Positions 1-29,011 of a stretch of DNA of 29,744 nt are shown here, piece by piece; the first letter of the stretch is position 1, and every line of letters begins with the position of its first letter. Source of the stretch: a virus. The position numbers and the translations under genes were made by a program. Under the pieces are notes generated by a model that was not told where the DNA came from, ran no database searches, and worked only from the letters and a program-made list of their open reading frames with translations. Location of the stretch: the IMG/VR virus record IMGVR_UViG_3300021961_000434, positions 1 to 29,744 of that record. One strand, given 5' to 3'.

Positions 1-1983
1 AGGGCGTCCAACAGGGATAGACGCATAAGAGGGCGTCTCAACGATCGGGCTACGAGGCGGGCTGGGAGGCGCGTAGCCAAAGTCAAGGCCCCCAGGGAAT
101 TGACTTGGGTTGTCCCGAATGTAGTCGTCGCCAGTGTAGTCGCGGTTAAAAACCGGGTTCTGGTTGGCCGGCTCTCCTTTTGTCCCGCCAAAAGCAGCCA
201 CCGTACCATAGGTGGCCAATGCCAGAGGACCATACTTCGTCAGAAGGCCAGCATCTTTCGGCAGGCCGGGGCGGTCTGGGGAAAGGTACTCGTTGTAGAG
301 GTTTTTGGCCCCTGTGGTCATCCGGTCAAGGAATCCAGGCTCAGAGCCCGCTACAGTCATACCAGGCTCTGGGGCGGCTCCAGGAGGCAACTGCAAAGGT
401 GAGAAAGCGTCGGGACCCGCGGACGAAGTGTTGTAAAAGGGCCCTCTTGGAGAGAAGGAACCTCCTGGTTCCGCAGGCGCGCCGCCGCCTCCGCCCGTGG
501 GACCGGATTCCAAAGGCGGTAGGTTAACCAACTTGCTCATTGGATCGGAGGTTGGCATTGAGAAAGACCTGGCACCCCCGCCTATGTCGTAGCTGTACTG
601 GCCCGTGATCCTATCGCCGAATGTTTCTCGCAAAGCTGCAAGGCGACCCATGTCCCCTTGTTGTGCCGCTTGATACGCCATGACTTGAGGATAGTTGGAT
701 ATCCCTTCAGGGGTAGAAGGTATAAATTTGGCCGCCTGAGCAGTACCTGTGACTTCTACTGGAGATACGAGCTCTGAAGCGGTTCCGATGGGCCCTGGGG
801 CGCCCGTTGGAGCGGCGTTTTGGGCCATGATTTCGCTGCGCCGGAAGTCCTCCAAGGCTCTCTGACGGATGTCGTCCTGGGTCACTCTTCCTTCAGCAAT
901 CAGGCCCGTGTTCCGCGCTCCTTGCATGGCACCCGCCGACAAGCCTGACGTCAGGCCCATCTTCAGGGCATCTTGCGTGCTCATGCCGCCCAGTTTTCCA
1001 ATGCCAGCGCCAATGATGCCAGTGGACAGGCCAGTGTTCAAGGCGCTTCCTGCAAGGCCTGGCAGGTATTTCCCGACCGCTGTCAGGGGATTGGTGCCCA
1101 TGATGGTGCCGCCGCCGCCAATGTAGCCCATGGCGCCGGAGACCAGGGCGTCTTTGAGTGAGCCGCCGCTGGCAAGGGTTACAGTACCAGAGGCTAGCGC
1201 AGCCGTGCCAGCACTGCCCAGGGTCGCGCCAATGGCTGTCGGCCCGAGGACCGTGGCCAATGCAATGGTGCCCAAGATGCGCCCGACAGGGCTTTTTAGC
1301 ACCTGCTTGGTGACGTTGACCACCGATTTAACGACGCTCTTGACGGCATTAACGACTGCCCCAATTGGCCCGCCTTTAAACTCAGGCAAGCCCGTAGCAG
1401 GGTTGATCGTTCCGGCGCCGCCCCGGCTCTTGAGCATGGCCGCTTCTTCGGGGGTGATGTGGGCAAGAATGGAGTCGCCACCGCGGCCTTTACTGGCCAA
1501 ATACGAGGCCACGTCCGCCAGGCCGCCTTCAGCCATGCCAATGGGCTGCAGGCCTTCGACAACCGGGGACATGTCCAAGGGCTCCATGGCTCCCTGGCCC
1601 TGCATCTGCCGCATCTCCTGCAGCACGGCCAGCATCGTGCCAATGAATTCGGGGTCATATTCCTCGGGCATGTCGCCCTCGTCCAATGCCCCCTCTTCAA
1701 CCATTTTTTGGACCAGGTTTTGATAGTCGCCAGGGTTCTGGCTGACGTACTCAAAAACCTGAATCAGGACATCAAGCTGATCTGAAGTAAGCTGGAGGTC
1801 CTGGATATTTTCGCGAATCGCCTCTTTTACAGCGGCTTGACCCTGAGGGTCAACCATGCCAAGGGCGGTCTGAGCAGCGTCGTAAGAATCAGCGCTGGAG
1901 ACGGAGATCGGCTGCTGGTTTTGGGCCTCTTCGGCCGGCATGTCCATGCCGCCAGGCAGGGCCATGATTCCTTCATTTGCCAT
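1..1983 (-). CDS. Putative internal virion / ejection protein, C-terminus cut by window edge
   Basis: The frame is open from an ATG at 1983 to the left edge: 661 codons without a stop, so the C-terminus lies outside the window. A GAAAGGA ribosome site precedes the ATG. The first ~140 residues are acidic and helical. Residues 150-154 read MAEGG, and residues 191-205 (GTINPATGLPEFKGG) match a module of the 1680-residue protein encoded at 22470-27512. About residues 205-360 form a long Gly/Ala/Val-rich hydrophobic stretch that could associate with membranes. After about residue 430 the protein is rich in Pro and Gly. I recognise no catalytic domain. The late position, size, hydrophobic core and shared module suggest a virion-internal protein released with the DNA; this role is inferred. 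A tail structural protein is the main alternative. Confidence 0.75.
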   Translation of the reverse strand, partial: MANEGIMALPGGMDMPAEEAQNQQPISVSSADSYDAAQTALGMVDPQGQAAVKEAIRENIQDLQLTSDQLDVLIQVFEYVSQNPGDYQNLVQKMVEEGALDEGDMPEEYDPEFIGTMLAVLQEMRQMQGQGAMEPLDMSPVVEGLQPIGMAEGGLADVASYLASKGRGGDSILAHITPEEAAMLKSRGGAGTINPATGLPEFKGGPIGAVVNAVKSVVKSVVNVTKQVLKSPVGRILGTIALATVLGPTAIGATLGSAGTAALASGTVTLASGGSLKDALVSGAMGYIGGGGTIMGTNPLTAVGKYLPGLAGSALNTGLSTGIIGAGIGKLGGMSTQDALKMGLTSGLSAGAMQGARNTGLIAEGRVTQDDIRQRALEDFRRSEIMAQNAAPTGAPGPIGTASELVSPVEVTGTAQAAKFIPSTPEGISNYPQVMAYQAAQQGDMGRLAALRETFGDRITGQYSYDIGGGARSFSMPTSDPMSKLVNLPPLESGPTGGGGGAPAEPGGSFSPRGPFYNTSSAGPDAFSPLQLPPGAAPEPGMTVAGSEPGFLDRMTTGAKNLYNEYLSPDRPGLPKDAGLLTKYGPLALATYGTVAAFGGTKGEPANQNPVFNRDYTGDDYIRDNPSQFPGGLDFGYAPPSPPRSPIVETPSYASIPVGRP

Positions 1984-2422: not shown

Positions 2423-3133
2423 TCACATCGCCGAAATAAAGTTGATGGTCAAGATCACCGATGGAATCTCTGGCCGAGTGGGGGACGCCCCAGCAGCGTA
2501 GTGTTCCAGATAGACATCAAGACTGTCCGACCACCACGCAACCTCCAAATACTGGTTGATTGGGTCATTGACCGTAAAAATGCCGGTGATGGCAGGGACT
2601 ACGTGGGCCCAGATCGTGGAACTTTTGCGGCTGGGAACGTCAAAGCGTGTGTTGGACAGGGGGTAGTTCACCCCCGTGTCCTTGGCCCAAATCTCAAACT
2701 CAGCCGCCGTATTGCCCCGGTTGGTCACCTGCAAGGTAAAAGTCACCAGGTACTGTCCGCCGCAGGGCACCCTAATCCGTGAGCCGCTTTCCACGGTAAT
2801 GCCGTTAGAGAATGCGGGCGCGAATGTCAGTAGGTTCTCGCCAGTGATGCTGGCATTAGCCTGGTCCTGATCAGAGATCATCATCGCGTTGGGCAAGAGA
2901 ATGCCGTTGCTGTTCTGGAATCCGCGAACCCCACCGGCAAACCCGCCGCCCGCGCCGCTGCCCGCGGACATCCAAGTGGCGGCCCCCAACTTGTCCTCGC
3001 TCGTGACAGGCGTATACGTGGCGTTAAGCTGCAGTATCACCTGCTCAAGGGAGCGTATGAGCTGGTTGAACTGGGCCGGGTCGTAGCCCCCTACGGCCGC
3101 ATTGGGCAGTCGTACGTTGTTTATCTTGCTCAT
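2423..3133 (-). CDS. Putative virion protein with C-terminal jelly-roll-like domain (236 aa)
   Basis: The N-terminal ~45 residues contain a short helical segment (QFNQLIRSLEQVILQLN), which could trimerise or anchor the protein. A Gly/Ala-rich linker follows at about residues 55-70. The rest alternates beta-strand-like segments, including GGQYLVTFTLQVTNRGNTAA, as expected of a C1q/TNF-like or other jelly-roll head domain. The start ATG overlaps the stop of the 616-residue tail gene by four bases (ATGA). A small tail spike or decoration protein would fit helix plus linker plus beta domain. That role is inferred from composition and position; I do not recognise a named family. Confidence 0.8.
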   Translation of the reverse strand: MSKINNVRLPNAAVGGYDPAQFNQLIRSLEQVILQLNATYTPVTSEDKLGAATWMSAGSGAGGGFAGGVRGFQNSNGILLPNAMMISDQDQANASITGENLLTFAPAFSNGITVESGSRIRVPCGGQYLVTFTLQVTNRGNTAAEFEIWAKDTGVNYPLSNTRFDVPSRKSSTIWAHVVPAITGIFTVNDPINQYLEVAWWSDSLDVYLEHYAAGASPTRPEIPSVILTINFISAM

Positions 3134-4980
3134 CGCAGGCCGTCCGGCTGGATGTCAATTCGCATCGTTCCAAACCGCCAGAAGGTGTCCAGATCGGTGC
3201 TTTCAATGCGCAACTGCACCTGTCTTCCGCGAGCGCGAGTGCTCACAAATTCAGTGTTGGGTGCAATCACGTACGGATCAAGCGAACTGGGTGCCGCGGT
3301 GGCTTGCGGATAGGGACGCAGAAGCAGCCGCACAGTGAGGTTGCCCTCCTGCCGCTTAAAGTCGGGCAGGAACTTTTGCATGAGCAGCATCTGGTCGCCG
3401 TCACCAATGTCAAAGTACCCAGAGTAGACGTAAGCGTTGATCGGGAGCCCATTTCCATTGATGCCGCGCTCCTGGCTAAACAGTTGGCTGCGCCCCGGAG
3501 TGAGCCCATAAATGGGGGTCAGCGTGGCCTGTGTCCCCGTGTTGTCGTAATCTGAGGCCAGCGGGTTAGCAAAAACTCCAGCATCTGTCCATGCCGTACG
3601 CGCCATGCTTCCGATAGACCAGACATTCTCCAGGTAGTTGTATGTGACAAATCGGTTGATGTAGTCACTGTCCGCCGTTGCGTAGAACCATGTCACCTCG
3701 TTGAACTGGGTGTTGATGCCGGCGTTCACTGCCGGACTCTGCACTCTATTGAGGTCTTGGAAAACGTAGTCTTGAACAGTGCAGGCCAGCTTTTTGACCG
3801 AGCCGTCAAAGACAAAAAACGCATCACGGCTCATCCAATAGGCGACGCCGTTGACGTCCACCGCGGCATGGGGACCGATGGCCCCACAGTTGGCCCCAAG
3901 CTGTTGGAACCCGAAAGTGTAGGGAGGGCCAACAAACGCCTGCCCGTGCAAAGCAGTGTCTGTCCAAATAAGAATTTGACCGCGTGAGCGGGTGGCAGAA
4001 ACGATCTCATTGCCGTCCGTGAGCCGTTGTCCGCCAGCCGTGTTTGTTGCAGTGGCCACAAAGTCGCCGATGTTTTCCTGGCTTGAAAAACGGACAAACA
4101 TGGGGTCCTGAGTTGCCGGATTCCCCAGGGTGCCCTCTGTTCCAAAACACACCAAGTGTCTGTCTGGAGTAGAGATAAGGGCAAAATTGCTTCTGGTTGG
4201 GGCCCCTACAAGGGCTGTGGCACGTGTTGAAAGACTCGTGCTTGGGTCCCATTCGTATATGCCCCCGTTTATCTTCTGTAGGATGAGGTTTTGGCCGTAA
4301 TTGTCAAACGTCCAAATGCCCGCCTCCAGAGAAAGCGCAGAAGATGGCGATCGTGCAGTGCCCCAAGCGGCGGCTCCCCAGCCTCCAGTGCCCCAGCCAA
4401 AATCCGCAAAGCTGATGTCTGTGCCGACATTGATTTGATAGGCGGCATCAGCCGTGCCCGCCGCCAACACGGTCGAGGTTGCTTGAACGGGGGAGACAAT
4501 GGTGTACTCATTGGCATTGACAATGGTCTGAATCTCAAACTCGTTTTCCAGACTGGCATTTGGGATGCCACCAGGATTGCCTGTGACATTGTCAAAAGTG
4601 ACGAAGTCGCCCGCTATCGCACCATGTGCGGTGTCGTTGACCGTAACAGTGGTCAGCCCGTTGGTCGTGTCAAATGTCACGGTGCCTGTGGCACGGATCG
4701 GGGTGATGTCGGCCCACTCCCCTCCCTTGAAGGCATAGACTTTCCGGTTGGTCCCTAGGGCAGCGAAGGGGACGCCTTGCAGTGAGTTCCAGGTGAAGAT
4801 GTCACTGATGCTGCCCACAAAATAATAGTTGCTGTCTTCAAAGAGCGTCCAGCCGCCTATTTTTTCTGGTAAGCCATAGCGGAATCGCACGTAGTCTGAG
4901 TCTACCCAACCGCCTTCGGCGCCGTACTCGGTGTTTTGTTTGTCAACACCGGGCTTCAAAAAAAGTCGCAGAAGTGGCAT
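3130..4980 (-). CDS. Tail protein resembling P22 gp10-type tail hub / DNA stabilisation proteins
   Basis: This 616-residue protein begins MPLLRLFLKPGVDKQNTEYG. The early segment GGWVDSDYVRFRYGLPEKIG recurs in aquatic phage tail proteins. The body shows repeated strand-turn units (NLILQKINGGIYEWDPS, GVAYWMSRDAFFVFDGSVKK) compatible with a beta-propeller-like fold. The C-terminal part contains YNYLENVWSIGSMARTAW, which resembles the corresponding part of P22 gp10, the tail accessory protein that closes the portal channel after packaging. A beta-rich end follows with FGTMRIDIQPDGLR. It lies downstream of the lysis genes and is translationally coupled to the next gene. Assignment to the gp10 family is by motif resemblance only; a general tail hub protein is the alternative. 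Confidence 0.75.
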   Translation of the reverse strand: MPLLRLFLKPGVDKQNTEYGAEGGWVDSDYVRFRYGLPEKIGGWTLFEDSNYYFVGSISDIFTWNSLQGVPFAALGTNRKVYAFKGGEWADITPIRATGTVTFDTTNGLTTVTVNDTAHGAIAGDFVTFDNVTGNPGGIPNASLENEFEIQTIVNANEYTIVSPVQATSTVLAAGTADAAYQINVGTDISFADFGWGTGGWGAAAWGTARSPSSALSLEAGIWTFDNYGQNLILQKINGGIYEWDPSTSLSTRATALVGAPTRSNFALISTPDRHLVCFGTEGTLGNPATQDPMFVRFSSQENIGDFVATATNTAGGQRLTDGNEIVSATRSRGQILIWTDTALHGQAFVGPPYTFGFQQLGANCGAIGPHAAVDVNGVAYWMSRDAFFVFDGSVKKLACTVQDYVFQDLNRVQSPAVNAGINTQFNEVTWFYATADSDYINRFVTYNYLENVWSIGSMARTAWTDAGVFANPLASDYDNTGTQATLTPIYGLTPGRSQLFSQERGINGNGLPINAYVYSGYFDIGDGDQMLLMQKFLPDFKRQEGNLTVRLLLRPYPQATAAPSSLDPYVIAPNTEFVSTRARGRQVQLRIESTDLDTFWRFGTMRIDIQPDGLR

Positions 4981-19127: not shown

Positions 19128-19601
19128 TTACATGTGCAGAACGTCTTCAGGACTGTTGACCACGGCCAGTACCTCATCGTCGTTCAACAGCCGGATTTCC
19201 CCGCCGTCGATCGGTATGCGGGCGCCAGCATACCGGCCGAAGATGATCCAATCGCCTTCCTTGCACCACGCGCCGGCAGGGAACTTGCCCTCGTCCGCGT
19301 ATGCCAGGTCACCCATCTTCAAAACGTAGCCGCACACGGTGGCCAACTGCGTTTTGCGCTGCGTCTCCTCGGCCAGGACGATGCCGCCCTTGGTCTTCTC
19401 GGCGCCGCGATAGGGCAGGATGGCAATGCGCCACCCGGTAGGCTTGGGGATGGTGTTGATGACCGCCTGATCGAGCTTTTCGGGGTCAAACCCGAGCTCG
19501 GTGTAGGCGTCCTCCAAGGCAGGAGGTTTGCTGGCAGCCTCTTCGGCCCATTTGCGTTCCAGCGCGGTCATTTGTGGTGCAGAAACTTCAGCGGTCTCCA
19601 T
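19128..19601 (-). CDS. Phage-encoded GroES-like co-chaperonin (157 aa)
   Basis: Residues 51-150 match the Cpn10 fold: PKPTGWRIAILPYRGAEKTK, then GGIVL (72-76), CGYVLKMGDLAYADEGKFPA, EGDWIIFGRYAGARIPIDGG and EIRLLNDDEVLAVV. The GGIVL segment with charged flanks corresponds to the GroES mobile loop that docks onto GroEL. A ~50-residue helical N-terminal extension is not part of the usual ~97-residue GroES. Like T4 gp31, it may adapt the host GroEL to fold the capsid protein; this is inferred from fold and position beside the scaffold and capsid genes. GAAAGGA precedes the ATG. Confidence 0.85.
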   Translation of the reverse strand: METAEVSAPQMTALERKWAEEAASKPPALEDAYTELGFDPEKLDQAVINTIPKPTGWRIAILPYRGAEKTKGGIVLAEETQRKTQLATVCGYVLKMGDLAYADEGKFPAGAWCKEGDWIIFGRYAGARIPIDGGEIRLLNDDEVLAVVNSPEDVLHM

Positions 19602-19870: not shown

Positions 19871-20122
19871 TCAGTATATCTTAACTGGACGATTTCCGTC
19901 CTTTTTCTTCACGATCATGGCCGGGCCTTGCACGCCGCCGCCCTTGGCCATCTTTCTGGTCTTGCCGGCCTTGTCATAGGCGATCGCGGCAGCCTGTTTG
20001 ATGGCCGCGGCTTTGCTCTTTGGCTTGCTGGTGCCAATCATCCCGTCTTGCTTGTAGTCGCGCACGATCTCGCCGATGTTGCGGCTGATGGTCTTCTGGC
20101 TGGAGCCTTTTTTAAGCGGCAT
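19871..20122 (-). CDS. DUF6496-like small basic protein (83 aa)
   Basis: From ATG at 20122 (GGGAG six bases upstream) the product reads MPLKKGSSQKTISRNIGEIV, ... AAAIKQAAAIAYDKAGKTRK, MAKGGGVQGPAM, ending DGNRPVKIY. The MPLKKGxSxKTISxNI opening and AIAYDKAG are the hallmarks of DUF6496, a short family found beside portal genes in phages. It overlaps the end of the portal gene by 11 bases in another frame. The MAKGG motif matches a motif found in several proteins here. The role is unknown; basic charge suggests DNA contact. Confidence 0.82.
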   Translation of the reverse strand: MPLKKGSSQKTISRNIGEIVRDYKQDGMIGTSKPKSKAAAIKQAAAIAYDKAGKTRKMAKGGGVQGPAMIVKKKDGNRPVKIY

Positions 20123-22460
20123 TTTGAACTCCCATTGGTGGTTGGCCGACTTTGGCGCCTTGAAGCGCCAGTTTCTGCTGGTTGAACATTTTGTTGTCCT
20201 GCAACTTTTGCTGGTCCAGAGCCAGGCGCTGCTGATCGAGCTGGTTCTTGGCCTGGTCGTTCTGCGCACGCTGCTGCAGCTCTGTCTCCTTGAGCTTGAT
20301 CAAGGGGTCTGGACCCTCTTCGCCCTCGCCAGAAAGCTCCTGCTGCATGTCCCGGACCTCCTTCATGCCCAGGGCGATCTTGAGCGCAACCATGCCCTCT
20401 TTCTGGATGGCCGAAACCATGCGATCGGGGTCGGTTCCATAGGTCTTGAACAACTCTGCTTCCACGTCTTCCTCGGCTTTCAAGCGCACGTGGTCAAGAA
20501 TGTGCTTCTGCAGCTCTGCCGCTGATAGGGGGTTGGACTGCAGGATGGGGGACATGCCCATCATCAGGTGACTTGCGATGTGCGCGTCGTGCTGCTGGCC
20601 AGCAAAGGCTTTGAGTTTCATGCCGTTGAGCACGTCGCTGTTCTCGGAGGCCGGATCACGCGGTGTGCTGGTGTTCTGTGGCAGCAAGATGCCATCAATA
20701 TCGCGGATATTGAGCGCCGCGTACATGCGGTAGAAGGCCTCGTACATGTTGTGCATGTTCGGGGCGCTCTGAGCGAGCTGCAATTGCATCTGGGCGAGCT
20801 GGATGCGCTGCGCAGAGCTGAAGATGTTGGGGTCGGCCACCGGCTGCACGCCCACCATCGAGTTAAAGTCCGACTTCTTGACCTTGCGGCTCGCGCCAGG
20901 CACGTCATAGGGGTACTCGTCGGGCAGGTATTGGCCAAAGCCTTCGAACAGCAACCGGAACTCCAGCGTCTGCGCGTAATGCAGTCGCTTGTGGATGCTG
21001 GACATGACCATAGAGCCGCGCTCCAGCAGCGCCAAGGTCGTTCCGACCTGCGCGTACTGGTTGCCATCGCCAACTTGCATGTCGGCGGTGCTGGACAGGC
21101 GTTTGCCGGCGTCTACGAGGAAGCCCAGGAGCGCAAACAGCACCTGGCTGGGCTCTTTGTAGGGCAGAGGCATCAAAGAGGCCGAAAGCTCGGCTCCGCC
21201 AGCGTCAATGTCGCGCCATTCGCCCGGCTGGATGGGATCAGAGTCGTCCGCGATGCGCGCGCCCTTGGCTTTGAAGCCCGCAGGCAGGTTTGCAAGCGTT
21301 CCGGCGTCGATCAACTGCCGCAGGGCGCTCGTTGCGGCCTTTCCAAGGCCCCCAATGAGGTGCACAAAGCCCAAACCGTACGCGCCAGGGCCCTCGACGA
21401 GCACGTAGTGGACGTAGTAGTTGCGGCGGCGCTTCTTTTCGTCGTTTTCCTTCCAATTCCGACGAATTCCGACAACCTTGAGGCTGTCTTCGGCCAGTGT
21501 GACAACGTAGGGCAGCTTGATTCCGGTCGGTTCGCCGTTTTCGTCCTTGTCTTCGAAGCCTGGGATGTCCAAATCGACCAGTTGCTCCAGCAAAAACACC
21601 TCGCCGACGTCATCGGTGGGCTGAATGCCCGTCACTTTGTCCACCGCGGCCTTGATTTGGCTCGGATCGGAGGGCGCGGCGTAAGTTTCAACGGGGATGT
21701 CGATGTATTCGCCGGCCAAAGAGCGCTTTTTGTACTCGTTGGCGTCCATCGGAATGCGGTTCGTGAGCCGCGGGCACTGCGAAACGACGCTGGAACCGTT
21801 GTAAGGGATGTAGACGTCGTCTGCCAGGCACAGTTTTGACACCATCCGGCCCAGTTGATAGTCGTAATAGACCTTTTTGAAGGTCGAACCGCCATATCCG
21901 GTGTAAAAAAGCTGTTGATCAAACTCCGGTGTGTATTCCTCCATCACCGTGGTGAGCTGGTAGTTCATGAAATCCTGCACGCGACCGGCCTGTTGGAACT
22001 TTTCGACCGTCTCTTTGCCCATAATCTGCGTGCGAACAGGGCCGCCAGCGGGCATCAGCTCCTTCAGGGCCTGCGCCTGGAATTGGATGATGGCTTCGGT
22101 GATCATCGGATGCACCGCACCGGCCGCGCCGCGGAAGGGTTTGGTGCGTTCTTCGATGCGCAAGCCCAGCAGATCAAGGCCCTTGGCGTACATCTGCTCC
22201 CAATCGGAGCGTGAAGCCTTGTCGGCCTCGTACATGGCGGCCACATCAATGGAGATGCGCGACAAGGCGTCCGGGTCAATGACGTCGACCAGGTTGTCGT
22301 AGAAGTCAACCGACTGCGCCTCGTCCTCGCCCATCTCAATGGTGGCGCCACCGTCGTCGTCAATGACCACTTCAATGTCCATTGAGGGCTCAGGAATGCC
22401 GCCGCCCCCTACGATGACTTCCAAGGCCGGGGCTCGGTTGAGTGCTTTGTCGATTGGCAT
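20112..22460 (-). CDS. Portal protein (782 aa)
   Basis: The portal forms the ring at one capsid vertex through which DNA enters. Blocks recognised are MYEADKASRSDWEQMYAKGL, KPFRGAAGAVHPMITEAIIQ, FQAQALKELMPAGGPVRTQI, MNYQLTTVMEEYTPEFDQQL, FYTGYGGSTFKKVYYDYQLG, SSTADMQVGDGNQYAQVGTT and a long Gln-rich helical C-terminus (QRLALDQQKLQDNKMFNQQK). The last ~80 residues are a coiled coil that could form an internal barrel. The N-terminal ~45 residues are acidic and variable. Size and blocks fit portals of podovirus-like aquatic phages. AAGGA precedes the ATG. Confidence 0.92.
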   Translation of the reverse strand: MPIDKALNRAPALEVIVGGGGIPEPSMDIEVVIDDDGGATIEMGEDEAQSVDFYDNLVDVIDPDALSRISIDVAAMYEADKASRSDWEQMYAKGLDLLGLRIEERTKPFRGAAGAVHPMITEAIIQFQAQALKELMPAGGPVRTQIMGKETVEKFQQAGRVQDFMNYQLTTVMEEYTPEFDQQLFYTGYGGSTFKKVYYDYQLGRMVSKLCLADDVYIPYNGSSVVSQCPRLTNRIPMDANEYKKRSLAGEYIDIPVETYAAPSDPSQIKAAVDKVTGIQPTDDVGEVFLLEQLVDLDIPGFEDKDENGEPTGIKLPYVVTLAEDSLKVVGIRRNWKENDEKKRRRNYYVHYVLVEGPGAYGLGFVHLIGGLGKAATSALRQLIDAGTLANLPAGFKAKGARIADDSDPIQPGEWRDIDAGGAELSASLMPLPYKEPSQVLFALLGFLVDAGKRLSSTADMQVGDGNQYAQVGTTLALLERGSMVMSSIHKRLHYAQTLEFRLLFEGFGQYLPDEYPYDVPGASRKVKKSDFNSMVGVQPVADPNIFSSAQRIQLAQMQLQLAQSAPNMHNMYEAFYRMYAALNIRDIDGILLPQNTSTPRDPASENSDVLNGMKLKAFAGQQHDAHIASHLMMGMSPILQSNPLSAAELQKHILDHVRLKAEEDVEAELFKTYGTDPDRMVSAIQKEGMVALKIALGMKEVRDMQQELSGEGEEGPDPLIKLKETELQQRAQNDQAKNQLDQQRLALDQQKLQDNKMFNQQKLALQGAKVGQPPMGVQNAA

Positions 22461-22469
22461 GTGTGGTCC

Positions 22470-25400
22470 TTACGGCGCAGGAGCGTTTTTAAGTTGATTT
22501 CTGTAGGATGTTAACAGCGGAGTCAGGTAAGCGTCGCTTTCAACAATCTTCACCGGCTTAAGGTAGTTCTGCAGGAAGTCCAACACGCCAATTTCGTACG
22601 AAGAAGGGGCGGTGTTTCCGGTAGCGCGGCCGTTGCCCTTGATCTGGGTGACCACAGGGCCCGCAGCTTCCATCCGCACCTCAATCGTATTGACTGGGCG
22701 GTTGCGGTTGTCGCGCAGGGTGTACACCCGCATGGTTCCGTCATTGAACTGCTTGTGTTTCTCCGGACCGTACGCGCCGCCCTTTGCGTAGCCCCCAACA
22801 GAGTGCCCAACGTAGGCGCCCTCGGGCACTGTGGCCTCTGCATTTTCAATGCGCTTCCAGGCAAACCCTGAAAGCGGGCCTTCACCAAACTGCAGCAAGG
22901 GACCGCTGACACCTTCGCTGAAAAACTTGTCCGGCACTCGCTTGCCCGCACGAATGTCCGCGGCCAACGTCTCGCGCTCCAGTCGCTTGGCGGAGATTTT
23001 TGCCGCGCCCCTGACCGCATCCTCAAAGCGAATGTTTTTGAGCTCTCGCTCGGGAATGCTGGCAAGGAACTCGTTGATGCTGCTCGCGTCAAAAAGTTGC
23101 CGCAGCGGTGCATTGGGGCCGCCGGTGCCGTACATGATTTCCCCTTTGTCAAACGCCGTGCGCAGGTTCTGCGGCAGCGCATCGGGCTGCGGCACCCCCT
23201 GAAAGTTCGGATCGCCCAGGCGCGTGCCCGTAGCGGCTTCGTAGTCCGTCAAGATAGACTTGGCGCTGTGGGGCCCGAGTATTGTGTCTGGAACTTTAGC
23301 CGAACGGGTTAAAAACTCTAATGTGGGTTGAGCCTGCGTCACCGGCGTGCCCTGCGCAATCATCCGGTCAATCTCTTGATTGCGCAGCGCTTCCATAAAA
23401 TTCTCGCCCTGACGCGAGGGGCTGTACGTGAAATTTGGGTCCATGACGCTTGCAGGATCGCGAACAGGCACCGAACCACGAATTTGCGTGAGATCGTCGT
23501 AACGCTTGCGCAAGTCGTCAAATGCTTCTGGGTACGCGGGGAAGAACCTGGTTTGGCCCGTCTCTTCATTAACCCGGGTTTTGCCCAATTTCAATGAATC
23601 CAAGGCGTATTTTCTAAAGTCCTTGTTCAGCACCGGCGACTTAATGGTCTGGTCGCGGATGCCGCGATACACCGGGTCGCTTTCAGTGCCAAACTGCTTG
23701 GAAAAATAATTGGCCGCCTTGCTGTTCCAAAAGTTTTCCATGAGCGCCGCGCGGTCCGTGGTGTGCGTCATGTTGGCCAACTGGTCGCGTGCATCGCGCA
23801 CGCCGTTGTCCAGGTACGTCCCTATCCAGTCAGAATTTTGATCGCGACGGATCGCAAGGTTAGAGCCCTCTGGCCGGACCGCATACGATGCACTTGGCAC
23901 GGACAACTGGCGGTTGTACTGTTGGAAGTCTTTGGCCAGATCAGAGGCCGCTTGGCCCGCACGCTGCGCGGTCATGACGCCACTGCGAACGACCCCTGCA
24001 GGGTTGGTCAGGTTGGACAGCAGTTGCCCGGCCGTGTAGAAGCCCTTGTCGGTGGCATCCTTTGGCGGCTCAGGGCGCACCTTGGCCGCCGTCATCTTCT
24101 CCTTGATCCAGTCGCTGCCCATCACGGGCTTGTCGACGTCGTAACCGAGTGGGCGCAGCGCCATGGTGGCAATGTCCACCGGTGCGCCAGCGATGTCGTA
24201 GGGCAGCTCGGTGACGCCCTTGGCCATGTTCACATACGCCTCGCCAGTGTTCAGCGCGCGGCTAATCGGGCCCTCCTTGCGGCCCTTGCCAGACTTGGGC
24301 GTGACAAAGGCCGGGCGGCTGGCCGCGTCCAGTTCTGCGTGGCTGACTTCGCCCTCCTTGGGGCTGCCTTCGGCGCGCTTGACAGCGGGTTTGGAGTTGC
24401 GTTTGGCAAGGTCTAAAAGAATCATGAATTCGGTTGCCGCCGTTGCGTCCACATGTGGTGGGGCATCATCTGCCGTGGTTGGCCCCGCGTACTTTCCTAT
24501 GCCATGGGCAGCAATCTCGTATGGGGTGGCTCGGTAGTCCCTGTTCGCCGCGGCCCACTCCGGGTGGTATTTACGGGCCAGGTCTGCGCGTCTCCTGCCC
24601 TCCCGCATGCCCCCACTGCCTACCAACTTCTTGTAGGCATCAGTGAAAGCATTGCCCTTGCTGAAAATACCAGTCTGCTCACCGGCCTGCTCTTCAAACT
24701 GCCGGTCTACTGCATGCGCCATTTCATGCGCTAGAGTTGATGGCCCAATGGTTTTCTTGTAATCAGAGTCAATGATGTCCTTATTGATCTTGATGGTGCC
24801 TCGGCCTACCCCTCCAACAAACGGCAACTTCATTGAGCTAAACACTGCGTCAATGTGAGAGGGCATTCTTCCGGTTTCCACGTCAGGCACCGCGTCCCTT
24901 GACTTCAGATATTCCAACATAGCGCGGTAGTCTTCATTCTGCTCCGCCTTGGATTTCGTGCGCTCGATGAAGTCGTTGTCACTGCCCTTAAAAAGTCTGC
25001 TAAAAAAGCCGGGCTCTTCAGCCTTTTTAGCGTCGGACTTTTTTACCTCACCACCCTTCTCAAAGCGCTTCTTGGCCAAGCTGTTCTTGGTCAAAGCGGG
25101 CTTCTCCAAGGTCGGTGCGCCCAGGGTGTTGCGCATCAGGCCGCGGGCCGCGTTTGAGGCTTCCTGCGCCTTGAGCTTGTAGGCAAGAGCCAGCGCTTCC
25201 ATCTGCGATCGCGCGCTGTCCTCGCCCTTGAGCTCCGGGACCTGTGCCTTGGCCGACATGAGCGACTCAATGCCCATGGTCATTTCCTTGCCGGACTTGG
25301 CGCCGCCAGAGGACTTGGCCACGCGCTTGACGCTGACCTCGTTGGGCGATGCCTTCTTGCTGCCCATCAGGTCGGCCATCATTTTCTGCGCCGAGCCCAA

Positions 25401-27512
25401 CGGGTCGGTGTTGATGTAGTCTTCCTCGCTGGCCTCGCCGCCTTCTGCATAGCGTTTGGGCTCGTAACTGCTGTACCAGTCGGCCTGAGGCATCTTGTCC
25501 TGCAACTGCTTGGAGTACTCTTGGCTGTAGTAGAACTTGCGCTTGGCGGCTTCTTCCTGTTGAGCCCTTTGCGCGTCCCTGGTTCTTTTGAAGAACGCCA
25601 ATTCCCCCGACGAAGTTGCTGGCGGCTCCGGCTCGGGCTCTGGTAAGACCGAGGTACTGCCCCCGAACAACTTAGCAAACGGGCCGGGCTTGGTCGGCGC
25701 TGGCGCGGCCGGTGCCGGTTGGGCAAAGTTTTCCATCCGCTTCTGGAAGACGCTGAAGCGGTTTTTTGCGCTGTTGGGGTCCGCCACCTCGCCGCCTTCT
25801 GCAAACAACATTGGCGCAGCCGGTGCATAAATGCGGTTGCCCAAGCGGTCAGTGATGAAACCCGCGTTATCCTGGCCGCCCAGCATCGTCGGCGACAGGT
25901 TCTTGTTTGCCCCAATCGCGCCCATGGTGATCTTGCCAGGCTCCAACGGCATGTCCGGCGAGCCAATAGCTCGCGTGCCAGGGCTGATGCCCTGGCTGGG
26001 GGCAGGAGGTGCCATGCCAAAGAAGTTGCCAGGGCTTGTTGCTGGGCTGCCCCCAAAGGTGGGCATTGTTGGCACCGAAATACCGCCGGTGGGGATGCTA
26101 GGCTGGGCAGGCGTCGCTGCCTTTGGCGGCTGCATCGTGTAGTCCTTTACCCCCGCTTCCCTCGCAGCGCGGGGGCTGCTGTACATCTTGCCGTCCGGAC
26201 CATAAACAACGACCTGTATGTCAATGATGCCGTCGTCTACGCGAGACGGTGGGGAAATGCCCCCTGGCCCGGGGACCGCGGGCCGCGGTGCGGGAGCCGG
26301 GGTTCTTGCGCTCGGGGGCACCGGGGTCGGTGTCAAACCCGGTTTGGTGGTACGGTCCAGAGGGGGCAGCCCCACAATCTGCCGCATGATGTCCTCGGCA
26401 CTTTGCTTGTCGCCTACCTTGAGCTTTGCGATTGCATCAGAGAGCTCCGGCGCCTTTGGCTTTGGAAGAGCCTCCAATTGGTCTTTGGCCGTGCTTATGG
26501 CCGGAGCAGGAGCAGGGGTTAGAACCGGAGCCGGAGCTGGCGCTGCCATGACAGGGGCGGAGACCTTTTCTGCAACAGGAATTGGTGCAGGGGCGGGGGC
26601 TGGCGCTGGTGCAGGAGCTGGTGCGGGAGCGGAGCGGCCGCGGCCAAAAATCCTGCCCAAAATCCCACTTTTAAACTCCGGCAATCCCGTTGAAGGGTTG
26701 ATGGTGCCAGAGCCGCCCATCTGCTTGAGCAGCGCTACCGACTCAGGCGACAGATAAGCCAGCAGCTCATCGCCACCGCGCCCGGCTGCCGCTACGCGGT
26801 CCACGGCCTCCATGACCTGCTCTCGACTCATCCGGCTGTTGGTGCCGAGCTCCTGAAGGATGCCGTCCAATGTCTCGTTGTCATCACGTTCCACTGGACC
26901 CCCTTCCGCCATGAACCTGCCGGCCACGGACATTGAACCAAAATTAAACCGATCGGGGTTGCTGGCCACATCAATGGCCACTGCCCTGCTTGCTGCGTCC
27001 TTTTGCGCCCGCTGGGCAGCAGCCTGCTGATAGGCCTTGACGTCTTCTTCTTTGAAAGGCACCTTAGGCGCCTCCATAGTAAACGCCCCAGGCTCAGTGG
27101 GAGCGCTCATCCCAAACGCCTTGAGTGTGGGCTCTGATGGTCCGGCATAGTCCTCGGTCCGCGGTCCGGCATTCCAGGTCTCCACCGCCTTGACGTATGC
27201 GTTGTACTCGTTCTGGTACGGGTTGTAGACTTCTTCGTTGTATTTCTGCGCAGCCGTGTTGTAGGCTTCTACCTGGCCCTTGTACGGGTTGTAGACTTCT
27301 TCGTTGTACTTGGTCAAGGCGTCGTTGTAGGCCTGACGCTGGGCCTCATACGCATCCAGCTCTTTCTGGCGCTGTTCCAGGTAGGCCTTGTCAGAGCCAC
27401 GGAGAAAGGCCCGCTGACCGGGAAGAGCAATGCCGCCGATGGCAAAGTTTTGGACAGGCTCCGGCTCGTAGCCCTCGCTCATCTGGTTTGGAGACAGATA
27501 TTGTTCGTCCAT
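22470..27512 (-). CDS. 1680-residue multidomain protein with HEMAH metallopeptidase motif and PcfJ-like end
   Basis: Recognisable parts in order: two Tyr/Asn-rich repeats (68-111); a GTINPSTGLPEFKSG module (269-283) shared with the 661-codon protein at the left edge; an Ala-Pro tract (about 295-312); a disordered Pro/Gly-rich region; several AEGG/EKGG motifs; a zincin-like segment with H929-E-M-A-H933 in LAHEMAHAVDRQF and a possible third ligand E999 in TPYEIAAHG; and a C-terminal segment (about 1550-1660) with GHSVGGYAKGG, MRVYTLRDNRNRPVNTIEV and TQIKGNG, resembling the PcfJ-like part of phage polyvalent proteins. A virion-delivered, multifunctional protein is likely: size, position between terminase and portal, and peptidase motif fit an ejected protein or internal protease. 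Processing into pieces is possible. Start has GGAG nine bases upstream. Confidence 0.85.
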   Translation of the reverse strand: MDEQYLSPNQMSEGYEPEPVQNFAIGGIALPGQRAFLRGSDKAYLEQRQKELDAYEAQRQAYNDALTKYNEEVYNPYKGQVEAYNTAAQKYNEEVYNPYQNEYNAYVKAVETWNAGPRTEDYAGPSEPTLKAFGMSAPTEPGAFTMEAPKVPFKEEDVKAYQQAAAQRAQKDAASRAVAIDVASNPDRFNFGSMSVAGRFMAEGGPVERDDNETLDGILQELGTNSRMSREQVMEAVDRVAAAGRGGDELLAYLSPESVALLKQMGGSGTINPSTGLPEFKSGILGRIFGRGRSAPAPAPAPAPAPAPAPIPVAEKVSAPVMAAPAPAPVLTPAPAPAISTAKDQLEALPKPKAPELSDAIAKLKVGDKQSAEDIMRQIVGLPPLDRTTKPGLTPTPVPPSARTPAPAPRPAVPGPGGISPPSRVDDGIIDIQVVVYGPDGKMYSSPRAAREAGVKDYTMQPPKAATPAQPSIPTGGISVPTMPTFGGSPATSPGNFFGMAPPAPSQGISPGTRAIGSPDMPLEPGKITMGAIGANKNLSPTMLGGQDNAGFITDRLGNRIYAPAAPMLFAEGGEVADPNSAKNRFSVFQKRMENFAQPAPAAPAPTKPGPFAKLFGGSTSVLPEPEPEPPATSSGELAFFKRTRDAQRAQQEEAAKRKFYYSQEYSKQLQDKMPQADWYSSYEPKRYAEGGEASEEDYINTDPLGSAQKMMADLMGSKKASPNEVSVKRVAKSSGGAKSGKEMTMGIESLMSAKAQVPELKGEDSARSQMEALALAYKLKAQEASNAARGLMRNTLGAPTLEKPALTKNSLAKKRFEKGGEVKKSDAKKAEEPGFFSRLFKGSDNDFIERTKSKAEQNEDYRAMLEYLKSRDAVPDVETGRMPSHIDAVFSSMKLPFVGGVGRGTIKINKDIIDSDYKKTIGPSTLAHEMAHAVDRQFEEQAGEQTGIFSKGNAFTDAYKKLVGSGGMREGRRRADLARKYHPEWAAANRDYRATPYEIAAHGIGKYAGPTTADDAPPHVDATAATEFMILLDLAKRNSKPAVKRAEGSPKEGEVSHAELDAASRPAFVTPKSGKGRKEGPISRALNTGEAYVNMAKGVTELPYDIAGAPVDIATMALRPLGYDVDKPVMGSDWIKEKMTAAKVRPEPPKDATDKGFYTAGQLLSNLTNPAGVVRSGVMTAQRAGQAASDLAKDFQQYNRQLSVPSASYAVRPEGSNLAIRRDQNSDWIGTYLDNGVRDARDQLANMTHTTDRAALMENFWNSKAANYFSKQFGTESDPVYRGIRDQTIKSPVLNKDFRKYALDSLKLGKTRVNEETGQTRFFPAYPEAFDDLRKRYDDLTQIRGSVPVRDPASVMDPNFTYSPSRQGENFMEALRNQEIDRMIAQGTPVTQAQPTLEFLTRSAKVPDTILGPHSAKSILTDYEAATGTRLGDPNFQGVPQPDALPQNLRTAFDKGEIMYGTGGPNAPLRQLFDASSINEFLASIPERELKNIRFEDAVRGAAKISAKRLERETLAADIRAGKRVPDKFFSEGVSGPLLQFGEGPLSGFAWKRIENAEATVPEGAYVGHSVGGYAKGGAYGPEKHKQFNDGTMRVYTLRDNRNRPVNTIEVRMEAAGPVVTQIKGNGRATGNTAPSSYEIGVLDFLQNYLKPVKIVESDAYLTPLLTSYRNQLKNAPAP
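27180..27311 (-). repeat. Two in-frame 66-bp coding repeats
   Basis: Residues 68-89 and 90-111 of the 1680-residue protein both begin KYNEEVYNPY and are each 22 residues. The DNA copies (about 27246-27311 and 27180-27245) share long identical stretches, so the duplication is recent compared with other repeats here. Confidence 0.85.
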
Positions 27513-27553: not shown

Positions 27554-29011
27554 TCAATAGTACTCCGGCACAAGCTCGCCCTTGTCCTGCGGCTCGTTGT
27601 CGTCAGACTCCAAGCTGATAAAGTTGCCCTGGCGAAAACGCATCATCGCCATGGTGGTGCTATCGACCATGTCGTCGTTGTCCCCGTTTGGAAAGGCCGC
27701 GCATTCCTCAACAAGCTCCTCGGCCCAGTCCGTGTCAGGGGCCCAGACCATCCCGGCCTCAAAGATCGGCGCCACCGCATTGGCCCGCGAAACCTTGTCG
27801 GTGCCGCTCCTGCGCCCGCCAGGTGAATACATGGTCACCGGAATGCTCATCCGGCGCAGCTCCTGCTGAAGCGACGTGCCCGTGGCCTTGGCCTCGATCA
27901 GCACGTTGTCAGGCTGCCAGTGATCGTACTGGTCCTTGGCCACGCGCTTGAGCTCCGGGAAGTCCCAGCGCCCACGCTTGACGTCGAGCAAGATGATTGA
28001 CGCCCCAGAGTCCTCGTTCAGGTAGAACACGCCCCAGGTGGTGATCACCGAATAGTCAGCCGTCTCCTTCTTGGAGTACGCCGTGTCCAACGATTGGATG
28101 ATGTAGTTCACCACCGGCGGATCGTCCTTTGGCCAGACCTTCCACCACTCGCGCTTCAAGATCGCGCCCTCGTCGTTGGTGGGCTGCTGCTGGTACATCG
28201 CGTTCCACTTCTGCACCGACAACGTGGCCTTGACCCCCTCCAGCTCCTCAATCTTCCAAAAGCCCGGCCATAAGGGTTTACCACTAGGCAAGCTGGCCGG
28301 AAACTCAATGACCTCCCACTGGTCCGCGTTGCGCGATCTCTGCGCCTTGAGCAGCCTCGCCGTCAGGTCCTTCGTGCCCCAGCGCGTCATCACGATCACG
28401 ATCGCGCCGCCTGGCTGCAGACGAGTCCTCGGGCCAGAGATGTACCAGTCCCAGGCATTGTCCAAAGCAAGGTCGCTCATCGCGTCCTGCTCCGAGTGCG
28501 GGTCGTCAATGATCAGAACGTCAGCGCCACGGCCAGTCATGGCACCGCCCACGCCAACGGCAAAGTACTCCCCGCCTTTGTTCGTGTCCCACCGGCCAGC
28601 AGCCTTGGAGTCCTGCTTGAGCGCAACATTGGGGAAGATTTCCTTGTAGGTGTCCATGTCCATCAGGTCACGGACCTTCCTGCCAAAGCGGACGGCGAGC
28701 TCGCTGTTGTGGGTCGCTTCAATGGCCTTGGTCCGCGGCTCTCTTCCCATGAGGTAGGCGGGCAGGAGATAGGACGCAAATTCAGACTTCGTGTGCCGCG
28801 GGGGCATGTTGATGATCAGGCGCTTCAAAGTGCCGTTGGCAATGCGGTCAAAGGCGTTGGCCATCTTCTGATGGTGCTCGCCAAGGATTGCCTCCGGCCA
28901 GACGTAGCGCACGAAATCGATGAAGTGAGCACGCGCTTTGTCTTGAGTTTCAAGCTGCGCGAGCCGGTACTCCAGCTTGAGCCGTTCCGATTCAATTTCG
29001 TCAGGGATCAT
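27554..29011 (-). CDS. Terminase large subunit (485 aa)
   Basis: The motor ATPase and nuclease that packages DNA. Residues 67-77 hold the Walker A-like motif (NMPPRHTKSEF), with Thr in place of the Gly before Lys. Walker B with catalytic acid is ADVLIIDDPHSE (163-174); the coupling motif is IVMTRW (206-211). The RNase H-like nuclease has likely metal ligands D309 (QSLDTAY), E373 (NVLIEAKATG) and D447 or D450 (NDDMVDSTT). The length is typical. It is the first gene of the transcription unit. No small terminase subunit is visible in the window. The ribosome site is weak (GGACC). Confidence 0.95.
   Translation of the reverse strand: MIPDEIESERLKLEYRLAQLETQDKARAHFIDFVRYVWPEAILGEHHQKMANAFDRIANGTLKRLIINMPPRHTKSEFASYLLPAYLMGREPRTKAIEATHNSELAVRFGRKVRDLMDMDTYKEIFPNVALKQDSKAAGRWDTNKGGEYFAVGVGGAMTGRGADVLIIDDPHSEQDAMSDLALDNAWDWYISGPRTRLQPGGAIVIVMTRWGTKDLTARLLKAQRSRNADQWEVIEFPASLPSGKPLWPGFWKIEELEGVKATLSVQKWNAMYQQQPTNDEGAILKREWWKVWPKDDPPVVNYIIQSLDTAYSKKETADYSVITTWGVFYLNEDSGASIILLDVKRGRWDFPELKRVAKDQYDHWQPDNVLIEAKATGTSLQQELRRMSIPVTMYSPGGRRSGTDKVSRANAVAPIFEAGMVWAPDTDWAEELVEECAAFPNGDNDDMVDSTTMAMMRFRQGNFISLESDDNEPQDKGELVPEYY

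Follow-up and report, generated by a model that had tools for sequence, protein, structure and literature searches.

A widespread, undescribed module in two otherwise unrelated late proteins of an uncultured tailed phage, and its possible role as a docking element of injected proteins

The selection of proteins for injection from the virion is well known for few phages, namely T4, P22 and T7. The capsid targeting sequence (CTS) of T4 is an N-terminal peptide of about 10 residues that is cleaved by the prohead protease. The internal proteins of T4 are described as diverse cargo with one conserved targeting sequence (PMC3012670). In P22, incorporation of the ejection proteins gp7 and gp20 is attributed to their N-terminal portions, acting through the scaffold (PMC8402733), and for this reason P22 serves here as a model for the module described below. 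Ejection proteins and the so-called polyvalent proteins, which unite different enzymatic (zincin, ART or transglycosylase) and LPD domains in a single chain, diverge so fast in sequence that they are difficult to recognise.

The DNA analysed here (the window) is a stretch of 29,744 nucleotides from IMG/VR record IMGVR_UViG_3300021961_000434 and represents the late region of a tailed phage on the minus strand, to which all window coordinates below refer. Its genes are arranged in the order terminase large subunit (TerL, 27554..29011), P0002 (1,680 residues, 22470..27512), portal protein (20112..22460; phrog_1216, E 9e-37), GroES-like protein, capsid protein, SU10-type adaptor, fibre-like proteins, stabilization protein (616 residues, 3130..4980) and P0001 (1..1983). 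The capsid-protein gene matches major head proteins and, weakly, phrog_133 'head maturation protease' (E 1e-4). The GroES co-chaperonin homologue (phrog_3188, 19128..19601) lies beside the head genes, as it does in pelagiphage HTVC027P and roseophage CRP-901. P0001 is open at the left edge of the window, with 661 residues seen and the C terminus beyond. It is complete (773 residues, L001:9551–11869) in a 48,158-bp contig, to part of which the window is nearly identical.

P0001 and P0002 lie at opposite ends of the late operon and are otherwise unrelated, as the initial annotation had proposed. Joining them is a single block, in which P0001 residues 145–211 (1351..1551) align with P0002 residues 219–289 (26646..26858), with 33 of 71 positions identical and 48 positive (BLASTP, 68.2 bits, E 2e-15). 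Both copies are also detected by HMM, and among the 16 window proteins compared this is the only inter-protein similarity at E<0.01. Within the block is the near-identical GTINPxTGLPEFKxG segment that had first drawn attention, correctly located at P0001 residues 191–205 (GTINPATGLPEFKGG, 1369..1413) and P0002 residues 269–283 (GTINPSTGLPEFKSG, 26664..26708). Homology had been expected over about 45 residues and extends over about 65, starting in P0001 near MAEGG at residue 150. With the low-complexity filter on, the score is 67.4 bits; shuffling of the P0002 sequence gave at best 37.4 bits (1,000 full shuffles) and 43.9 bits (1,000 local, 20-residue shuffles), against 71.6 bits observed at the same settings. 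The seg-filtered BLAST and the 2,000 shuffles rule out a chance or low-complexity origin of the block. Directly after the P0002 copy is a long Pro-Ala repeat (about 26493–26630), suggestive of an extended linker.

Judged by sequence comparison, the block is a widespread, undescribed module that occurs in hundreds of uncultured-phage proteins. Viral contigs were searched with the P0001 block (best 80 of 550 relatives), the P0002 block (best 80 of 87 relatives) and a degenerate DNA pattern for INPxTG.PE (at least 120 matches), and the results were pooled with the window and two copies of the window's own stretches to give 279 sequences. An HMM found the module in all 279, in 284 ORFs among the matches listed, which is expected because these sequences were fetched by the module itself. 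Some of the pooled loci share one contig, and a later, enlarged set holds 252 distinct module ORFs. When the module is masked, the 284 ORFs (among the matches listed) separate into 34 single-linkage groups without detectable mutual similarity, with links requiring bits>60 and E<1e-8; these are the P0001 type (191 ORFs), the P0002 type (50) and 32 small groups totalling 43 ORFs. The module starts at residue 2–30 in many small groups, at about residue 150 in P0001 and at about residue 220 in P0002.

The module comes in a short form of about 45 residues and in a long form, in which a stretch of about 30 residues (GExVVP...GLDPxxYxVG) is inserted; the two belong to one family (hhalign 99.9%, E 9e-34). 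Residues G, D, N, T and G are invariant over 51 diverse module rows. Searches with these 51 representatives gave no convincing family match in Pfam (lowest E 0.018) or in PHROG (lowest E 0.0014), a PDB search with the module returned chance-level matches only, and listings and abstracts of the open-access literature contain no description of it, which does not prove its absence elsewhere. Among 50,697 phage records, tblastn detected the module at E≤0.01 in four: DSL-LC04, where the carrier is annotated as tail tape measure protein, the isolate Methylophilales phage Venkman, where it is gp46, and two Manatee Spring genomes; a long-form query had no match in this collection. The tail of Venkman is reported to have looked short in TEM (PMC8163748). 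Of 355 stretches matching the pattern in bacterial and archaeal species genomes, 16 could be confirmed, and every one of these belongs to a metagenome-assembled genome (MAG).

Among 46 long records, picked for carrying the module, 42 have one strong copy and four have two, with the second copy always inside a protein of 1.4–1.8 kaa (4 of 4). Neighbouring module proteins in tandem were seen at several loci, as if the cassette expands by duplication: three on a Marinimicrobia-MAG contig (L339: 8022–9113, 9914–10807 and 11511–12413, plus strand) and two each in L331, L174 and L169. A degenerate module-like N terminus (HMLSYINPEEEAMLQKMRGG...GVPAF) was noted in a LysM-domain protein, gp72 of Roseobacter phage CRP-901 (L350:7688–10261), encoded a few genes downstream of the head-to-tail connecting (portal) protein; this match has E 9e-5 with one model and is absent with another.

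Opening the P0001 module is MAEGG (residues 150–154, 1522..1536), an instance of a companion motif, [FYM]AxGG, that recurs in P0002 as FAIGG (residue 23, 27432..27446), MAEGG (residue 201, just upstream of the module, 26898..26912), FAEGG (residue 570, 25791..25805), YAEGG (residue 688, 25437..25451) and YAKGG (residue 1575, 22776..22790). The motif occurs 2.0 and 2.5 times per 1,000 residues in the two main families, against 0.16 in 2,383 control ORFs. Its frequency is 1.4 in the ej690 cassette family (L001:14916–16985; 48 of 60 ORFs) and about 0–0.04 in portal, TerL, stabilization, adaptor and DNA-transfer proteins. This motif may be a more general signal than the module.

A cassette similar to those of ejection proteins starts with the P0001 gene. 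Like the podovirus ejection proteins (T7 gp14/15/16 and P22 gp7/20/16), P0001 stands in such a cassette, ahead of a homologue of a 'DNA transfer protein', and in the 48,158-bp contig it is followed by proteins of 661, 343, 690 and more than 1,085 residues. Its slot, after the stabilization protein (60.8% identical to the DSL-LC04 protein so annotated) and before the DNA-transfer-protein homologue, is the same in DSL-LC04. Where upstream sequence extends to 5 kb or more, 55 of 56 distinct P0001-type ORFs are preceded by a stabilization homologue; where 6 kb or more lie downstream, 20 of 34 are followed by an ej690 or DNA-transfer homologue. The stabilization protein precedes 7 of 19 small-group ORFs with room, and 4 of 15 newly added ORFs. 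Stabilization homologues are present in 140 phage records, as compared with four for the module (E≤0.01). P0001 was not assigned as a gp14 protein, because a sequence match is missing and its transmembrane segments are too few: it has 773 residues as opposed to about 200 in T7 gp14, and by hydropathy one strong transmembrane-like segment as opposed to four or five.

Orthologues of P0001 share a layout in which an N-terminal part predicted with confidence to be helical is followed by the module, a hydrophobic segment and a C-terminal motif, GPGTGTSDSIPAMLSxGEFV, of the kind found in tape-measure proteins; in an alignment of 63 of them, most invariant residues fall in the module and in this motif. 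Against Pfam and PHROG, P0001 has no match at E≤0.001, to families of gp14 or P22 gp7 included. AlphaFold2 models of the module and of P0001 had low confidence: pLDDT is 62 for the module alone (144 sequences) and about 43–59 across the module in full-length P0001 (63 sequences). A low-confidence hairpin at TI..EF with flanking helices was not used as evidence, and Foldseek with the low-confidence P0001 model listed 40 matches at E≤10, none of them at E≤0.001.

The hydrophobic, transmembrane-like segment of P0001 (residues 236–254, 1222..1278; Kyte–Doolittle 1.62, helical in the AlphaFold2 model) bears on the idea that the module acts in the host, either in outer-membrane insertion together with the following amphipathic or hydrophobic helix or by binding an envelope component, as part of a delivery channel. 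A hydrophobic segment is present within 150 residues after the module in 144 of 191 P0001-type ORFs, but in none of the 50 P0002-type and in 5 of the 43 small-group carriers. Amphipathic stretches resembling FLKKxFKxVKKVVKKV come after long forms. The 16 loci from the genome collection all lie in MAGs whose bacterial groups we take to be diderm, although assigning hosts to phage contigs through MAGs is unsafe. T7 gp14-like proteins, for their part, are reported to carry predicted transmembrane helices (PMC8954989). On balance, a host-side function of the module seems distinctly unlikely.

The tape-measure-type motif at the end of P0001 (GPINGPGTGTSDDIPAMLSDGEFVFTAKAV in the complete copy) offers another origin for the module. 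A strict regular expression finds this motif in 109 of 191 P0001 orthologues; 37 others are 3′-truncated and 45 are without it. The C terminus of the complete P0001 matches 17 PHROG families at E≤0.1, 12 of which are annotated tail length tape measure protein, and the motif also matches chains of PDB 8zdo and 8rk3. At one locus, two ORFs (L021:2513–3154 and 3158–4780) together make up a P0001-type gene that is interrupted immediately behind the module, and the second of them contains the tape-measure motif; this could be a frameshift, a sequencing error or a real split. The module could be a duplicate of this C-terminal motif (GxGTxxSDxIPAxLSxGEFV), serving as a tail hub or assembly contact, with the P0002 copy arising by duplication and no link to injection. 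The long form aligns with it in register (GD..AHVs.GE.VVP with SDxIPAMLSDGEFVMTA), scoring 20.7 in hhalign where the highest of 150 column shuffles scored 14.2. [FYM]AxGG precedes both the module and the tape-measure motif in many proteins, the two co-occur in the same proteins, and in L333 the module is directly behind a sub-threshold lambda tape-measure C domain. The register similarity is nevertheless weak (pairwise E 0.004, probability 8%), with a larger short-form profile the observed score was reached by 4 of 150 shuffles, and the NPxTGLPEF half of the module has no counterpart in the C-terminal motif. Each also occurs without the other: the module alone is present in Venkman, MW202753 and MW202825, and the tape-measure motif alone in HTVC027P, HTVC023P, 023Pt_psg01, MinM2 and MW202675. 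Descent of the module from the tape-measure motif is suggestive only, and we consider the corresponding explanation of its function unlikely.

At the other end of the operon, P0002 lies between TerL and portal, and thus among virion and packaging genes as polyvalent proteins do. TerL is upstream in seven of seven P0002-type ORFs. As with polyvalent proteins, the members of its family are giant proteins that adjoin packaging genes and swap enzymatic domains. The module-bearing relative L087 contains LPD23 (E 9e-22), and the module-less C-terminal relatives L323 and L324 contain an SLT transglycosylase (E 9e-13 and 4e-9). P0002 itself has no above-threshold Pfam domain and offers only the zincin-like metallopeptidase motif HEMAH (residues 929–933, 24714..24728) with a sub-threshold Peptidase_M91 match (E 0.025). 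In L150, L164 and L268, module proteins are located exactly between TerL and portal; beyond the module, BLAST finds no similarity (E<0.01) between them and the P0002 type. Besides the module, the L150 protein contains SLT (E 4e-25) and a sub-threshold ART-PolyVal domain, and one of its PHROG matches is phrog_342 'internal virion protein with endolysin domain' (E 4e-23); that of L333 has sub-threshold lambda-type tape-measure domains near the module, and the large carriers L158, L167, L164 and L268 have no recognisable domain. Large proteins that are unrelated to one another recur in the TerL–portal gap of L150, L164, L268 and the window, and the gap has the look of a site at which payload genes are exchanged.

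The HEMAH motif in P0002, together with HELQH-type motifs in homologues, raises the possibility that a protease for the maturation or self-processing of large internal proteins recognises or cleaves the module. Such sites usually need fewer conserved residues than the approximately 40 over which the module is conserved, and of the 50 module proteins of the P0002 type only 3 match a HExxH expression, two of these being the window sequence and its copy in the contig. The paper on polyvalent proteins (PMC5512222) proposes that zincin-like domains process multidomain proteins; the terms 'tape measure' and 'LPD23' are absent from its main text. A role in proteolytic processing is in our view improbable.

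For the relationship between the two window copies, the initial annotation had left open ancient duplication or domain exchange. The DNA at the end of the block can still be aligned between the copies (62 of 81 positions, 77% identical), as might be expected from recent domain exchange or gene conversion within the phage lineage. The two families are nevertheless separated by fixed residues, with Tyr, Ser/Ala and mostly Glu in P0002-type modules as against His, Glu and Thr/Ser in the P0001 type. The identity of the window pair (0.67) ranks 8 of 25 among P0002-type modules (median 0.67) and 15 of 94 among P0001-type modules (median 0.64), and that of a second same-genome pair, L042/L085 (0.64), ranks 6 of 25 and 6 of 94 (medians 0.64 and 0.61), not clearly closer than cross-genome pairs; these ranks use a fixed-length pattern, and a third same-genome pair is outside it. 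Given these fixed family residues, and since pairs taken across genomes are as close as the window pair, the sequences are better explained by a duplication long ago and separate descent thereafter; recent exchange is unsupported and very improbable.

Over a longer time scale, modular gain or loss is clear. Mean pairwise identity in P0002-type modules is 0.83, against 0.30 and 0.21 in the 60-residue flanks (34 distinct sequences), a contrast that is exaggerated where indels occur because the flanks were compared without gaps. In L320 and L312, the P0002 flanks can be aligned and the module is absent. Among 14 C-terminal P0002 relatives (L311–L324), the module is found in five and not in nine; seven of these nine (L312, L314, L315, L320, L321, L323 and L324) are homologues without it, and the other two, L317 and L322, are 5′-truncated and cannot be classified. 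At the P0001 position, two cultured Pelagibacter phages, HTVC027P and HTVC023P, encode slot-equivalent proteins that contain the tape-measure motif but in which no module is detected at E≤10. The module is thus optional in both the P0001 and the P0002 settings.

We favour, at about even confidence, the reading that this promiscuous accessory module is a docking element on proteins that would be stored in the virion and delivered via the tail into the host envelope. The distribution of the module fits a shared docking or tagging role in internal, injected proteins (docking to the portal or inner core had been suggested for the window pair): homologous copies are widely distributed, they occur on unrelated carriers in two gene slots, they are conserved inside variable linkers, and carriers include proteins with tape-measure, transglycosylase or polyvalent domains. 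The docking element would consist, in order, of [FYM]AxGG, GRxGDxxLAHIxPxExxxLK and the GTINPxTGLPEF turn, and would bind a common assembly partner such as the scaffold, the portal barrel or a tail hub. Binding would load the carrier into the particle, line it up for ejection, or both. In the window, P0001 would carry the resident copy, and the old, diverged copy in P0002 would help to place this polyvalent-type protein.

By analogy, the T4 internal proteins are probably the closest parallel to the module. Like the T4 CTS, the module is a short conserved element on otherwise diverse proteins, which in the case of the module are presumed to be internal. Unlike the CTS, it spans 40–80 residues and is often internal to its carrier. 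It was not placed in the T4 targeting family owing to its position, at about residue 150 in P0001 and about 220 in P0002 rather than at the extreme N terminus.

More tentatively, and with considerable doubt, the module may be a plug-in address tag for injected proteins across much of the uncultured aquatic virosphere, such that a protein acquiring the tag in one of the slots becomes cargo. A tagged protein in either slot would be loaded with, and ejected by, the resident tape-measure or ejection machinery. If the tag turns its carrier into cargo, a phage could therefore swap polyvalent effector payloads by exchanging tag fusions. The loading step would become directly testable through one segment of about 45 residues, and a conserved, searchable module of this kind would allow injected proteins to be picked from metagenomes.
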